From positions 124,001 to 188,000 of the forward strand of contig JBBCGY010000002.1 in assembly GCA_037200005.1 (NCBI GenBank): a DNA stretch of 64,000 bases, given 5' to 3'. The notes under the pieces were generated by a model. That model had not been told where the DNA came from, did no database searches, and worked only from the letters and a program-made list of their open reading frames with translations. Each line of letters opens with the position of its first letter. Positions within the stretch are counted from its first letter, which is position 1. Shown here piece by piece: positions 41,581 to 47,701 of this stretch. The position numbers and the translations under genes are program-made. The DNA comes from Alphaproteobacteria bacterium (GTDB taxonomy: Bacteria; Pseudomonadota; Alphaproteobacteria; UBA9219; RFNS01).

Positions 41581-42570
41581 TCAGCGCACCATCTGCTTGA
41601 AGTGGTTCCAGATCACGGTGCCGGAGTCGATATCCATATTGCTGCGGCCGATGATCATTTCGGCTATGGGCGATGACAGTCCCGGCCACATATGGCCGCC
41701 ATGATCGATGACATAGAAACTCGACGTCGTATTCGCGAAGCAATCTCCACGGCTATCCAGGCGGACGGTCGAATTGTCCCGTTTGTGAAGATTTGGCAAT
41801 CTGGTTTCGACGACGCGGGAATCGCAGCGCGCGTTATCGGCCCAGAATTCGAAGCTTTCCGCCGCGCTAAGCATGATCGGATCGTCGGATTTGCCCCTGC
41901 TCCCTCCGCCATTCTGCGGGCCGCCGTTAAAATTGAAAAACTTGTCTTCCGTGCCGTTGACGGCGATCCACGGCACCGCTTTATCCGGATGGCATTGCGC
42001 CTGCTGCAACACGGGCAGCGCCGCGACGACATAACCGCCGCCTGCGAGAAGATGCGCTTTATGGCAGGCAAAATTTTCTGTCATCAAACCGCCGTTCGAC
42101 GCCCCGATCATGAACACTTGGTTCGGATTGGCCGCATAACGGTTGACGGCCACGGTGATCAGCCGTTCCAGGAATTTGATATCGTCGGCGGTCGAGGGCT
42201 TGCCGCTCACGACCTTATGCCGTCCGTCGTTCCAGTGGCCGCCGTCGGCGGCGTCCGGCGCGATCAGGATGAATCGCTCCGATTGGGCAAGCACCGGCAG
42301 GCTGGTCTGTTTCCAGACCTTGCGCCCGCTTTGCGTTCCGCCATGCAGCAGGATGACGACCGGAAACGGCCCGCCGCCGGGCGGACGGTAAAACAGGTAA
42401 CTGCGCGGAATGCCCTCAACCTCGATGGAATCTTTTTGCGCGGTGCGCAGCGATCCTTTGTCCGGAAATCGAATATCGTCATTCTGGCGCGGGGCGGCAT
42501 AAGCATAGAAAGGCGTCATGGCCGATATCGCCATGAGAATGAGCGCCGTCATGACATGGATATGCCGCAT
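41581..42570 (-). CDS. Secreted PHB-depolymerase/feruloyl-esterase family hydrolase
   Basis: 329 residues. A signal peptide (LILMAISAMTPFYAYA) is followed by an alpha/beta hydrolase of the LpqC/Esterase_PHB type: oxyanion region FPVVILLHGGTQ, nucleophile Ser in MIGASNGGLM, Asp within NGTED, and His in VIDHGGHMWPG. Four or more Cys suggest disulphides. The substrate could be a polyhydroxyalkanoate or a phenolic ester. It lies 15 bases downstream of the giant OmpA-like gene, so the two may be co-transcribed. Confidence 0.86.
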   Translation of the reverse strand: MRHIHVMTALILMAISAMTPFYAYAAPRQNDDIRFPDKGSLRTAQKDSIEVEGIPRSYLFYRPPGGGPFPVVILLHGGTQSGRKVWKQTSLPVLAQSERFILIAPDAADGGHWNDGRHKVVSGKPSTADDIKFLERLITVAVNRYAANPNQVFMIGASNGGLMTENFACHKAHLLAGGGYVVAALPVLQQAQCHPDKAVPWIAVNGTEDKFFNFNGGPQNGGGSRGKSDDPIMLSAAESFEFWADNARCDSRVVETRLPNLHKRDNSTVRLDSRGDCFANTTSSFYVIDHGGHMWPGLSSPIAEMIIGRSNMDIDSGTVIWNHFKQMVR

Positions 42571-42585
42571 GATGCTATCGGTGAT

Positions 42586-45500
42586 CTATTGGGCCACTAA
42601 ATCCACGCGGTCGGCCTCATGGTCGTCCGGTGTATTCGCTCCCATGGCTCGAAGCGTAATCTGCTCGCTTCTGGCTCCCACGGCGATAAGCGCGTCGCGA
42701 ACCGCCAGCGCCCGCGCCAGGGAAAGGCGGCGCGCTTCCCGCGCATCCCCCGATTTCGCATAAGCGATGACGGTCAGACGCATGCCGGGATTATCGGCAA
42801 GCTGGCCGCCCGCCGAAGCGATCCCATCCAGGACGCTGCTTTTCAGCACTTCGGAATCTTCGCTGAATTCTAGGCTGATGATGCTGGAATGGCCTGTTTG
42901 ATGCAATTTAGCCACGCCGTTATCCGAAGGCCGCATATTGAGAGTGCCGGGAGAACGAATGGCTGGCGCGGGCACATAACTCTGGGTGCCAGGCGTCAGA
43001 TCATTCGTATCAAGACGCGGCGTCGTAAGAGCCGCAACCGGAGCTGCTGGAGCCGCGAATGATGGAGGCGTCAGAAGCGGCGCTTGCGGAACGGCGACAA
43101 GAGGCGGCGGAGCCAATTTTGGCGTCACGACAGCGACGACGGGTGCGATGGGCGGCGGCGGCGCAGTCACGGGCACGATAACCGGTGGTTCCGGTTGCGG
43201 TGCGGGAGGCGACGCGAAAACCGGAGGTTCCGGCGCTGGATGCAGAACGATAGGCGCGGCGGCGGGTTCCTGGGCCGGAGGCATCGGCGGTTCCACGACA
43301 GGAAGCGGGGCCGGTGGCGGCATGGGCGCCGGAGGAGGAGCGATAGGCTCGACTTCCACGGCGGTGGTTTTCGGTTCGTCCGAAGAGAATATCGAAAACA
43401 CGGAACCGAATACCGATTTCTTTTCAGGGGGCGGCGGCGCTGGTGGCGCGGTCACGGCAACCGGCTCTGGCGGCTGAATGGGGGCAGGAGCTGGCGTCGG
43501 CGGGGGCACGGAATAAATATAGTCCGATTTTTCTTCCCGCTTCTTTTTAGTCTTCTGATGTTTTGGTTTCTTTGGCTTGGCTTCCGGTTTCGGCGCCGAT
43601 GGAGCCGGGACGGACGCCGTCGGGACAGGCGCGGATGGCGGCACTATGACCAGCGGCGGCTCAACCGTGGGCAGGGCTGCTTCCGGTTCGGCTTTCGGCG
43701 GCGATGTTTCCACAGCGACCGGTTCTTCCGCCGCCAGGGCGGCCAGAGAACCTTCACCGATAGGCGCTTCTTTTTCTTTAGGCGTCCCATCGACAGGCGC
43801 GGATGCCGATACGGATGACGACGGTTCTGCCGGAGGCATCTCTGCCGCGACCGCCTCTTCCGGGGATACCCACGAGATGAGGGACTTGAAAATGGATTTC
43901 TTCGGCGCAGCCGGTGAAACTACGGCCTCGGCGACAAGTTCGGGCTTCGGTTCTTCGATGGCAGGTTCCGCGACGGCCAAGGCAGGTTTTGGCGATAACG
44001 CCACCATGGACAGGAAAGTGGCGAGAGCGGGTTTTTCTTCAACCGGCGTCGATGAAGGCGTCAAAGGCGCTTCGTCCTGATCCGGCTGACGTGCGGGCAA
44101 TGCCGCCATGACAGGAGCGGGTTCAGGAGCGGGCGGAGGGGACGATGGCTGCGGCGCGCTGGCTGCAACGATCTCCGGCATCGTCCATTTGGCGAGAAGC
44201 GGAAGAATAAACGCCGGCTGTTCCGGCGGCGCGGGTATCGGTTGCGCCGGAGTATGGGCGGCAATAATCTTGAGCTTTGGCGGCGTTAATCCGGTATCGT
44301 GCGAAGCTACAGCCGGATTAGAAGCGGGCGCTTGCTCTTGCGCCGGGGGCTTTGCATCCGATTCTTCCCAGGCGATCCAGGACATCATCGAGGCAAAAAC
44401 GCCTTTTTCTTGCGCGGGAGACGATGATGCGGAGGACGCGGCGATTTTCGTTTCAGGCGATGTGACCGTTTCCGCCGTGGCTGTTGGCGTGGCTTTTTGC
44501 CGGGTCGCCAGCAATGCAGCTGCAATTTGCTCATAGGCTGGCGGCGCTATGGGCTGAATCAAATAGGGTGCGTTGCATGAAATAGAGACGCCGCCATTGA
44601 CGCCCGCGCACTGCCAATTCCAGGGGCCCCGCCCATTAATCTCGCCCGGCAGCCCGGATGCGCAAAAATGACTGGCCGGAATTTCCGATACCGCGACATT
44701 CGAGACTTCGCCGCATGCGCCGTTAATGGCGGGTAATACCGTTGGCGCAATTGGCGCGGCGGCTGCAGCAACCGCGGCTTCTTTGTCGGCCTTTTCTTTG
44801 GCCTTGACCGTTTCCGCCTCTTTGATCCTGCTCTCTTCGGCTTCTTTAACTTTAGCGGCCTCAGTCTCTTGGGCTTTAGCTTCCTCGATTTCTTTAATCT
44901 TGGCCGCTTCTGCCTCTTTAGCTTTCGCCGCTTCCGCTTCTTTGGCTTCGTTTACAGCATTTTTCGCGGGATCGGTGGCCGGCGCTGCTTCGCTTCTCGC
45001 AAAGCTTACCGGCTCTTCTGTTTTCTGAGATATGACCGGTGAAGCGGACGGTTCGGAAACCATCGCTTGCTTTTCTCCGACGAGAGCCATGCATTGCACG
45101 CTGGTGCCGCCATCGCCGCCATCGCAGATCCAGCGCCACGGCCCGCTGCCAAGAACCGTCCCCGGCGTTCCGGCATTGCATAGCGCGATGGTCGGCGCGC
45201 TCGGCAAGGCCATGTTGTTAGCCGTGCCGCATTCGGCCAGCACCGGCAAATTCACCGTGCATGATACCAGGCGGGCCTGAGTATCGGCGCATGTCCAATT
45301 CCAAGGCCCTTCGCCCGTAACCTGGCTCGGCGAGCCTTTGGCGCATAAATCCTGGGTCGGAGAGATAATCGTCGCCGTTTTAACGGCAGCGCCGCAGGAG
45401 GCATCGGCAGTTGCTACCGTGACGGAATCTCCGGATGAAGCAGAAGGCGGCGGCACGACAGCTTCCGGCGCTTTTGTCTTGATGGCATGAGGCGCAGGCT

Positions 45501-46110
45501 CAACCGGCGCGGCCGCCGCTGCTTTAATTTTCGTCGGCGCAGCGGCTGGGATTCGATTGGTCAAGGAAACGGGCTGGAAGATTTTCTGAGCTTCGGCGGC
45601 AGCCGTAACAGCGGGACCGCACGTATTGGCAAGCCATACGTCCTGCAGTTCCCCCGAGCCGCATTTGACACGGGTTTCGCCGTGAATGTCGCCGGTGAAC
45701 TCGGCGGGATAACCGGCATCGACGCAGCGCCTGACCCATGGCACGGCTTTATCGACGCAGGGGCTGCTTACGGTTACTAACGGGGCTGTATTCTCGGGCG
45801 CGGGAGCGGCAAGCGCCGCTGAAGCCGCCGCCGTGGCGCTGGGAGCGCTGAATAAAGGACGCGCTACCGGCTTCGGATCGCGTATATGCACTGTCGAAAG
45901 CGCCGCCTTGACGGCTTCGGGCCCCATGCGGCGCACGCCCGGCAATACCGGAGGCCGCAAGGGCTGAACGACAACCAATGCGTCTTGTTTCGATGCCCGC
46001 GGCGGACGGATATCTCCAGGAGCCATATTTTGAGCAGACGCGGGCCCGATCGTCGCCGCCAGCGCGGCAACCGAGAATAATCCCCATCGCAATGTTCCGT
46101 ATGAGAACAT
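42586..46110 (-). CDS. Giant Pro/Ala-rich envelope protein with OmpA-like end
   Basis: 1174 residues. Signal peptide (LFSVAALAATIGPASAQ). Four Cys-bearing units follow; three share C-G...L-C-x-x-G-x-P...G-x-G-P-W-x-W-x-C (about residues 240-290, 295-345, 465-515), as seen in various bacterial surface proteins. A charged coiled-coil stretch (EAAKAKEAEAAKIKEIEEAK) lies between units. Then come about 500 residues rich in Pro/Ala, interrupted by three aromatic motifs (KGVFASMMSWIAWEES, KKSIFKSLISWVSPEE, KKSVFGSVFSIFSSDE). The end is an OmpA-like peptidoglycan-binding domain (REARRLSLARALAVRDALIA, LRAMGANTPDD). It probably bridges envelope layers; that role is inferred. Confidence 0.82.
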   Translation of the reverse strand: MFSYGTLRWGLFSVAALAATIGPASAQNMAPGDIRPPRASKQDALVVVQPLRPPVLPGVRRMGPEAVKAALSTVHIRDPKPVARPLFSAPSATAAASAALAAPAPENTAPLVTVSSPCVDKAVPWVRRCVDAGYPAEFTGDIHGETRVKCGSGELQDVWLANTCGPAVTAAAEAQKIFQPVSLTNRIPAAAPTKIKAAAAAPVEPAPHAIKTKAPEAVVPPPSASSGDSVTVATADASCGAAVKTATIISPTQDLCAKGSPSQVTGEGPWNWTCADTQARLVSCTVNLPVLAECGTANNMALPSAPTIALCNAGTPGTVLGSGPWRWICDGGDGGTSVQCMALVGEKQAMVSEPSASPVISQKTEEPVSFARSEAAPATDPAKNAVNEAKEAEAAKAKEAEAAKIKEIEEAKAQETEAAKVKEAEESRIKEAETVKAKEKADKEAAVAAAAAPIAPTVLPAINGACGEVSNVAVSEIPASHFCASGLPGEINGRGPWNWQCAGVNGGVSISCNAPYLIQPIAPPAYEQIAAALLATRQKATPTATAETVTSPETKIAASSASSSPAQEKGVFASMMSWIAWEESDAKPPAQEQAPASNPAVASHDTGLTPPKLKIIAAHTPAQPIPAPPEQPAFILPLLAKWTMPEIVAASAPQPSSPPPAPEPAPVMAALPARQPDQDEAPLTPSSTPVEEKPALATFLSMVALSPKPALAVAEPAIEEPKPELVAEAVVSPAAPKKSIFKSLISWVSPEEAVAAEMPPAEPSSSVSASAPVDGTPKEKEAPIGEGSLAALAAEEPVAVETSPPKAEPEAALPTVEPPLVIVPPSAPVPTASVPAPSAPKPEAKPKKPKHQKTKKKREEKSDYIYSVPPPTPAPAPIQPPEPVAVTAPPAPPPPEKKSVFGSVFSIFSSDEPKTTAVEVEPIAPPPAPMPPPAPLPVVEPPMPPAQEPAAAPIVLHPAPEPPVFASPPAPQPEPPVIVPVTAPPPPIAPVVAVVTPKLAPPPLVAVPQAPLLTPPSFAAPAAPVAALTTPRLDTNDLTPGTQSYVPAPAIRSPGTLNMRPSDNGVAKLHQTGHSSIISLEFSEDSEVLKSSVLDGIASAGGQLADNPGMRLTVIAYAKSGDAREARRLSLARALAVRDALIAVGARSEQITLRAMGANTPDDHEADRVDLVAQ

Positions 46111-46223: not shown

Positions 46224-47009
46224 TCACGCACTGCGCAGCGTGCCGAGCAGGGGTTCGTGAATGCCTTGATTGCTGACGAAGATCGTCCCGCCGGTTAGCG
46301 GATCTGTATTCGGCGTGAGCGGGCTTACTCTGCCGCCCGCCTCCATGACGAGCAGCATGCCCGCCGCGATATCCCAAATCTTTATGCCGTCTTCCCAGTA
46401 GCCGTCGAACTTTCCGGCCGCCACGTAAGCCAGATCCAGCGAAGCCGCCCCAAATCTCCTGATTCCAGCCACTTGCGATGAAACGCTTACAAGTTGATTG
46501 AAGAATCCTGGAATTTCGTGTCCTTTGAATGGGATACCGGTCGCAATTAAACATTCGCTTAAATCGCTGCGTTGAGACACGCGCAGCCTGCGGGAATTGC
46601 TGTAGGCGCCCATGCCTCGTTCCGCCCAGAACATTTCATCGCTGATCGGGTTATAGACGATACCGGCCATGATCTTGTCGCCCTCGGCGGCGGCGAGAGA
46701 AATCGCCCAATGCGGCACGCCATGCAGGAAATTGGTCGTGCCGTCGAGCGGGTCGATGATCCATCGCCAGGGCTTGTCGGTCTGCTTTTCGTCGCCCTCT
46801 TCCATGATGAAGCCGAATTCGGGACGCGCTCTGGCAAGTTCCGAGCGCAGCACCTCTTGCGCGCGCAAATCGGCGGCGGAAACGAAATCGGCCGGCCCCT
46901 TGCGCGATACCTGAAGATGCTCGACTTCACCGAAATCGCGTTTAAGCCCTTTCGCGGCCTTTTCGACCGCGCGAACCATGACGGTAATCAATGCGCTGCG
47001 GATAGCCAC
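46224..47009 (-). CDS. suhB: Inositol-1-monophosphatase SuhB
   Basis: 261 residues. Motifs: IMEEGD (about 71-76), WRWIIDPLDGTTNFLHGVPH (about 83-102) and WDIAAGMLLVMEAGGRV near the end, all metal-binding and catalytic. In E. coli SuhB also joins the rRNA antitermination complex. The internal GPADFVSAADLRAQEVLRSE is typical. It follows efp by 8 bases on the same strand, a common alphaproteobacterial arrangement, and precedes the giant envelope protein gene. Confidence 0.93.
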   Translation of the reverse strand: MAIRSALITVMVRAVEKAAKGLKRDFGEVEHLQVSRKGPADFVSAADLRAQEVLRSELARARPEFGFIMEEGDEKQTDKPWRWIIDPLDGTTNFLHGVPHWAISLAAAEGDKIMAGIVYNPISDEMFWAERGMGAYSNSRRLRVSQRSDLSECLIATGIPFKGHEIPGFFNQLVSVSSQVAGIRRFGAASLDLAYVAAGKFDGYWEDGIKIWDIAAGMLLVMEAGGRVSPLTPNTDPLTGGTIFVSNQGIHEPLLGTLRSA

Positions 47010-47017
47010 GATATGTC

Positions 47018-47584
47018 CTAATCTCTTGCGCGTTCGACGTACGAACCGTCAACGGTGTTGACGACGATTTTGGTTCCGGCCTCGATGAAGGGCGGCACCA
47101 TGACGCGCTCGCCGTTTTCGAGGATGGCGGGCTTATAGGAAGAAGACGCCGTTTGCCCTTTCACGACCGGGTCGGCTTCAACGATCCTGAGCGCGACGTT
47201 CGGCGGCAGCTCGACGGATAGCGGCGCGCCCTCGAAGCTCTTCACCGAACAAATCATGCCGTCCTGCAAAAACACCGCGGGCTGGCCGATGACGTCGCGC
47301 GGGATGGTCATCTGCTCGAAATTGGCCTGGTCCATGAAGGTGAACATGTCGCCCTCGGCGTACAGAAATTGCATGTCCTGTTCGCTCACCTGCACGCGCT
47401 CGACTGTTTCCTGCGTCCGGTAGCGGATGTCGGTCTTCGTGCCGGTGCGGATGTCTTTCATCTCGACCTGCACGATGGCGTTGCCCTTGCCGGGGATCAT
47501 GATCTCGGATTTGATGACGACCCATAATTTGTTGTTGTAATCGACGACATGGCCCTTGCGTAGCGTATTGGCATTAACCTGCAT
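47018..47584 (-). CDS. efp: Elongation factor P
   Basis: 188 residues, full length. MQVNANTLRKGHVVDYNNKL is the start of the KOW-like domain; the tip loop has PGKGNA with the Lys that EpmA modifies, followed by IRTGTKTDIRYRTQETVERV; the C-terminal OB domain has ILENGERVMVPPFIEAGTKI and ends ERARD. EF-P relieves ribosome stalling at polyproline, fitting for a genome with very Pro-rich proteins. The ATG at 47584 was chosen; 13 upstream codons in frame do not look like EF-P. Confidence 0.96.
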   Translation of the reverse strand: MQVNANTLRKGHVVDYNNKLWVVIKSEIMIPGKGNAIVQVEMKDIRTGTKTDIRYRTQETVERVQVSEQDMQFLYAEGDMFTFMDQANFEQMTIPRDVIGQPAVFLQDGMICSVKSFEGAPLSVELPPNVALRIVEADPVVKGQTASSSYKPAILENGERVMVPPFIEAGTKIVVNTVDGSYVERARD

Positions 47585-47701
47585 TTTCGACGTCCAATGA
47601 TGTAAATACGGATTGCGGAACATGCCCTGAAAGCATGGGAATTCCGCCTTGTTGTTGACGTTTTCCGGATATTTGTCAACTGACGGGCTTGATTTCCGGT
47701 A

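Follow-up and report, generated by a model that had tools for sequence, protein, structure and literature searches.

Short segments that attach a disordered protein region to a membrane are known from RNase E, where a short amphipathic helix within a disordered region targets the membrane on its cytoplasmic side, and TolA and TonB-type linkers provide a charged helix or a Pro-rich tether. The protein described here would resemble both in working only, as a short amphipathic segment within a disordered region and as a tether; Pfam, NCBIfam and PDB searches showed no sequence kinship with either, and no inner-membrane anchor was seen by eye. The OmpA C-terminal family (PF00691) includes OmpA, Pal, MotB and YiaD; the OmpA of A. 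baumannii binds diaminopimelate through Asp271 and Arg286 (PMC5974059). With this family our protein shares a match over the Pfam cut-off, an LSxxRAxxV core and the Arg, while it differs in having Lys in place of the Asp and in belonging to a clade separate from the other OmpA ends of its genome. The order's giant Cys-unit proteins, such as L069 (labelled Rhodospirillaceae bacterium isolate UBA8914, for which a literature search found nothing), share with it an N-unit, Cys units, an LxTPxL motif and an OmpA-like end, but carry up to 12 units and a patch-free tail of 49-151 aa, compared to 3 units and 557 aa.

The gene was found on the minus strand of the window, by which we mean the whole stretch of 64,000 nucleotides that was analysed, as an open reading frame (42586-46110) of 1174 aa, matching the strand and length first reported for it. 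The original prediction of a multidomain protein was borne out, with Cys groups, a helix-like stretch (by eye), a Pro/Ala tail and an OmpA-family end. The features are as follows.

42586..46110, minus strand: whole gene, 1174 aa; matches in 28 of 32 other order genomes
46030..46110, minus strand: apparent signal peptide, residues 1-27, without a lipobox Cys; by eye
45619..45759, minus strand: N-unit, a 4-Cys module, residues 118-164; pattern also matched by 23 of the 24 other members that have an OmpA end
45259..45396, minus strand: Cys unit 1, residues 239-284; sequence, and predicted beta domain (units 1 and 2 as a pair)
45091..45231, minus strand: Cys unit 2, residues 294-340; sequence, and predicted beta domain (units 1 and 2 as a pair)
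44746..44979, minus strand: charged Glu/Lys/Ala helix-like stretch, residues ~378-455; by eye
44575..44715, minus strand: Cys unit 3, residues 466-512; sequence
42904..44574, minus strand: Pro/Ala tail, expanded to 557 aa, residues 513-1069; the tails of 24 relatives measure 49-151 aa
44362..44409, minus strand: patch 1, EKGVFASMMSWIAWEE, residues 568-583; pattern, shuffles
43855..43902, minus strand: patch 2, KKSIFKSLISWVSPEE, residues 737-752; pattern, shuffles
43375..43422, minus strand: patch 3, KKSVFGSVFSIFSSDE, residues 897-912; pattern, shuffles
43114..43131, minus strand: tail motif VVTPKL, residues 994-999; motif search
43012..43029, minus strand: tail motif LTTPRL, residues 1028-1033; motif shared by the tails of 22 of 25 members
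42598..42867, minus strand: OmpA-like domain, residues ~1082-1171, with Lys at the diaminopimelate-binding Asp; Pfam, alignment, tree
46224..47009, minus strand: inositol-monophosphatase family gene, upstream neighbour; Pfam PF00459, synteny
47018..47623, minus strand: efp, elongation factor P gene; Pfam, synteny

All 16 Cys residues of the protein sit in four groups of four. The Cys units had been described as N-terminal, but they do not all precede the helix-like stretch, since Cys unit 3 comes after it. When the whole protein was searched against Pfam, the OmpA end was the sole match over its cut-off; a match at residues 692-745, which ends inside patch 2, was under its cut-off (E 0.37) and was taken as chance rather than as a real domain. 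NCBIfam returned OmpA-type families, all under their cut-offs, plus one chance-level match, and the single hit from the PDB sequence search, over the OmpA-like end, was weak (E 0.75). The view that the patches lie outside the known domains was thus upheld, with no real Pfam, NCBIfam or PDB sequence match over them. Scans of the sequence found promoters no more numerous than in shuffles and terminators about as many as in shuffles.

The relatives were drawn from an order set of 33 genomes, the window's own included, in which 29 were matched by the window protein, again counting its own and mainly through the Cys units. We examined 32 loci from 27 of the 28 other matching genomes (G028 was left out). 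Thirty of these gave an open reading frame with Cys units, while L063 and L067, which had no first-unit pattern, were dropped. Six of the 30 had no OmpA end (L037, at a contig end, and L058, L059, L060, L066 and L068) and are excluded from the counts on 24 relatives (Asp column, LxTPxL motif and tails), as are L069 and L070, whose contigs seem identical to those of L057 and L056. The window protein has the build of this giant family, with its N-unit, 4-Cys units and OmpA-like end, and its 3 Cys units compare with 1-12 in the 24 relatives with an OmpA end. Its tail, measured from the last Cys unit to the OmpA-like end, is 557 aa long versus 49-151 aa in the same 24. The nearest relative in the tree (L041, of the same family) is a protein of 506 aa that has a single unit and no patches in its 129-aa tail.

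Searching for the OmpA-like end in 240 genomes of the class gave matches in 105 at 1e-6, which points to an OmpA-like protein in 105 of the 240 sampled class genomes, apparently often without the classic wall-binding residue. Twenty class loci were picked by hand, mostly from the best matches and with some near contig ends passed over, so the sample is not random; in 19 of the 20, all but L146, a script relocated the OmpA end. An inositol-monophosphatase gene was near in all 20 picked loci and efp in 18, as in the window. The 19 class proteins that were read measure 312-622 residues from stop to stop and combine an OmpA-like end with a linker that is Pro/Ala-rich or similar; none contained Cys units. 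Seven further class matches, outside these 19, sit in open frames longer than 800 aa. Among the order loci with an OmpA end, both neighbours were observed at 10 of the 25 others and unseen at 15 of 25, partly through contig ends. In a tree of 49 OmpA ends (midpoint root, for drawing only), the window protein, 24 giants and the 19 short relatives formed one 44-row clade with support of 97/89. The genome's five other OmpA proteins fell outside this clade, three of the five on long branches.

These observations describe a class-wide OmpA-like protein linked to efp and inositol-monophosphatase, which the window protein resembles in neighbourhood, Pro/Ala linker, OmpA-like end and a mostly missing Asp, and from which it differs in that the 19 short members are without Cys units, patches and LxTPxL. 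On the best reading, the window protein is an enlarged local version of this class-wide envelope protein, which would consist of a signal peptide, a Pro/Ala linker and a divergent OmpA-like end and which in this order has gained arrays of small 4-Cys beta domains. The class-wide protein is apparently uncharacterised, to judge from a literature search and family names alone: the literature on the neighbourhood terms (efp, inositol-monophosphatase) held nothing related, judged by title, and that on the GPWxW string nothing bearing on the protein, judged by title and abstract.

The OmpA-family end scored 32.6 bits against PF00691 (cut-off 27.2) and 37.3 bits in the genome scan, which confirms the family. 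Its original description as a peptidoglycan end fits the family and the diaminopimelate-binding Arg, retained in the window protein, in 24 of 24 giants and in 19 of 19 short members, but not the diaminopimelate-binding Asp, which is Lys in the window protein. At this column Asp was found in 14 of the 24 other giants, 1 of the 19 short class relatives and all five of the genome's other OmpA proteins; two other members of the window's family, L039 and L041, have Ala and Ser. Because the Asp is Lys in the window, wall binding by its OmpA-like end appears doubtful, a reading taken from one alignment column. This weighs on the first proposal for the protein as a whole, namely that it is anchored to peptidoglycan and either spans the periplasm or holds surface structures. 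The over-cut-off family match, the Arg and the Asp in more than half of the other giants all argue for such an anchor, while the Lys, the lack of Asp in L039 and L041, and its rarity in the short class relatives compared to the genome's other OmpA proteins argue against it, and we consider this proposal unlikely.

Three similar patches in the Pro/Ala part, each by acidic residues, had been proposed, and this was confirmed. Matches to the pattern [KG]x[VI]FxSxxS[WI][IFV] begin at residues 569, 738 and 898, spaced 169 and then 160 residues apart, and the acidic residues follow as WEESD, SPEEA and SSDEP for patches 1, 2 and 3, respectively. The pattern was taken from the original prediction and had been derived from these very sites. 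When residues 540-1080 were shuffled 20,000 times it never matched, and it matched once elsewhere, among 3668 stop-to-stop open reading frames drawn from the window and 32 related loci. Once Pro/Ala matches had been masked, the three patch 16-mers were the best triple in residues 540-1080, with a score of 109 compared to a maximum of 51 in 200 shuffles. When Pro/Ala matches were counted, plain Pro/Ala segments outscored the patches with 137, a score reached by 3 of 200 shuffles. The shuffles rule out the patches as chance in a low-complexity sequence, though the unmasked Pro/Ala segments outscore them. Eight of the 16 aromatic residues of 540-1080 are held in the patches. Pairwise, the copies are identical at 26-29 of 48 nucleotides and 6-8 of 16 amino acids, and the nucleotide identity speaks against a recent tandem duplication. 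That the pattern was kept in spite of this divergence suggests that the patches may be under upkeep.

The patches had also been called amphipathic, which was only partly the case. The best helical moment over three offsets was 0.31 for patch 1, 0.56 for patch 2 and 0.41 for patch 3, corresponding to the 84th, 98th and 93rd percentiles of 11-mers of the same protein, so that patch 2 is strongly and patch 3 moderately amphipathic but patch 1 less so. A single-sequence structure prediction of residues 559-925 had a mean pLDDT of only 46.8 and showed neither a fold nor a helix.

Outside the window protein the patches were not observed. The pattern and three looser forms matched 0 of the 30 related order frames with Cys units, and the pattern had no match in the frames of L063 and L067; none of the 19 class proteins read contained patches, and a profile of the three window patches found no other giant, its next-best match being an unrelated frame at 9.0 bits. 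The original prediction had staked the patches on their conservation in homologs of similar length, and by this measure they are not conserved: they were absent from 30 of 30 related frames, in a comparison that covers other genera, the window genome being alone in its genus among the genomes compared. Aromatic tail patches were thus found in the window protein alone and are not a feature of the order's giant Cys-unit proteins as a family, and their absence from relatives would make them, on present evidence, specific to the window's lineage. Searches of the window's own genome with the patches returned the window protein as the only match (one of the search patterns fits patches 1 and 2 only), which lends no support to a genome-wide motif.

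Patch-like segments of another kind were observed elsewhere in the order. A segment such as DKSLFDRMAEPFTSIFGEPVEKKE precedes the N-unit in 5 of 6 genomes of another genus, the sixth having it in shortened form. L065, of a further genus, has a comparable segment, YKKSGGFFSFITDFFGSGDSES. These segments and the window patches have a common order of Lys (or Glu/Lys), hydrophobic or aromatic residues and acidic residues. A profile built from the window patches and one built from the segments in the first of these genera did not detect each other, and the resemblance was treated as a parallel rather than as homology. A mixed patch profile, searched in the 33 order genomes, gave matches at E <= 0.01 that were all in Cys-unit giants, from 8 genomes, 7 of which had themselves supplied rows to the profile.

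A second short motif was found in the tail. The search string [LVYA]xTP[RQKNH][LFY], applied to the region from the last unit to the OmpA-like end, reduces to an LxTP[RQKNH][LFY] motif observed in the tail of 22 of 25 order proteins including the window protein, which has two copies. The motif was present in each of the order's three families, compared to an expectation of 0.16 from shuffles, a contrast to be read with the motif having been picked after viewing the sequences and with rows that share ancestry. It was found in 0 of the 19 short class relatives. Its presence in 22 of 25 members indicates that short motifs in the Pro/Ala linker seem to matter.

In the explanation that we favour, to which we give a probability of roughly 0.4, the protein is exported and acts as a tether, folded at its ends and with repeated short docking motifs in a disordered tail. 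Export would follow from the apparent signal peptide and the family context. The folded parts (the Cys units and the OmpA-like end) would meet partners at either end, with the disordered Pro/Ala tail as a flexible tether between them. Each patch, with its Lys, hydrophobic or aromatic residues and then acidic residues, may be a copy of one weak docking motif, and avidity could let the three together bind either a membrane face or a protein partner that is itself repeated. We infer docking from the repetition of the patches, from a pattern that has persisted while the DNA diverged, and from the tail's second motif. The excess of the patches over chance, the lack of a fold in the tail model and the patch-like segments of other genera also favour this reading. 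Against it are the lack of patches in the relatives examined, including the 129-aa tail of the nearest one, the failure of the two patch profiles to find each other, strong amphipathicity in patch 2 only, a low-confidence tail model without helix, and the 15 of 25 order loci at which the two neighbour genes were not seen. If the reading holds, the patches would exemplify avidity-based docking in a periplasmic disordered tail.

Two other accounts of the patches draw on the same evidence. They could be lipid-binding amphipathic helices that lay the tail on the periplasmic face of either the inner or the outer membrane, consistent with Lys followed by hydrophobic and aromatic residues and with the moments of patches 2 and 3. 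Patch 1 reaches only the 84th percentile, however, the hydrophobic cores of the patches are short, and the low-confidence single-sequence model shows no helix. We regard this account as improbable. Alternatively, the tail could be a weakly constrained, slippage-prone linker, and the patches ancient internal duplications that serve no function by themselves, as is suggested by its Pro/Ala-rich composition and by a long tail and patches seen in the window protein only, among 24 relatives' tails and 30 frames. Such neutrality would have to accommodate a pattern that survived divergence to 26-29 of 48 nucleotides and a best Pro/Ala-masked triple that is exactly the three patches, and we find it rather unlikely; if it did hold, the case would show the extent of drift in such linkers. 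More broadly, with the docking tether as the preferred reading for the window, we tentatively suggest, with less assurance than for the tether, that a widespread alphaproteobacterial envelope factor may serve as a scaffold to which lineages add new modules: a 4-Cys array in the order and, in the window, a triple docking motif with multivalent binding to a specific partner in the envelope.

The Cys units were also examined as a domain. A structure of the window's pair, modelled together with 16 of the 19 tandem pairs found, had a mean pLDDT of 91.6 and showed small beta domains. Compared with solved structures, the best Foldseek match had an E of 0.23 (none <= 0.001) and the best VIA match a Z of 3.8, with an rmsd of 3.0 over 57 aligned residues. 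For a known fold, such as the Ig-like or Rib-like small beta domains, the structure matches obtained among the families compared were thus weak. Three proteins, two of which carry 12 and 14 copies of the unit, were searched for it in Pfam and NCBIfam at E 0.1 without a match, which points to a 4-Cys domain not represented there. No sign of a mobile origin was seen, with no match at E 1e-5 for the window pair in plasmids or for the array from L060 in phages. In an even sample of the phylum (299 genomes), the unit was observed in 5 of the 298 other genomes, from two genera. One contig labelled Staskawiczbacteria encodes a Cys unit too.

A short motif, LxTP[RQKNH][LFY], preceded the OmpA-like end in 22 of the 25 members, being observed in the tail of the window protein and in those of 21 relatives. 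This motif and the gene neighboring that of the window protein are located as follows:

43012-43131, part of the tail with the LxTP[RQKNH][LFY] motif
41581-42570, (-) strand, esterase-like gene (NCBIfam comparison)

The neighboring gene resembles short-chain polyhydroxyalkanoate depolymerases, but its score for them, 106.4 bits, is below the NCBIfam cut-off of 150.

Module order differed between members with the 4-Cys N-unit near the start and one family of the order (L044, L045, L051, L061), in which the N-unit was observed directly ahead of the OmpA end. Patch-like segments, e.g. KSLFDRMAEPFTSIFGEPV, were observed ahead of the N-unit at five loci of a single genus (L046, L049, L055, L056, L057), while segments with a SIFG core matched more weakly, with 12.3 bits at L038 and 5.5 bits, close to background, at L054.

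Cys units like those of the window protein were also observed in further frames of the order (L059, L060, L066, L068), with the largest number, 14 copies, in L060. No OmpA end was seen in these four frames, some of which are cut by contig ends. Another Cys-rich protein of the own genome, encoded beyond the window (L164:2241-5063, G000:C1), likewise contains Cys units; it is a 941-aa frame with 51 Cys for which a Pfam search returned no match. The 4-Cys unit was additionally observed, perhaps through a binning error or transfer, on L071, a contig labelled Candidatus Staskawiczbacteria and assigned to a distant phylum.
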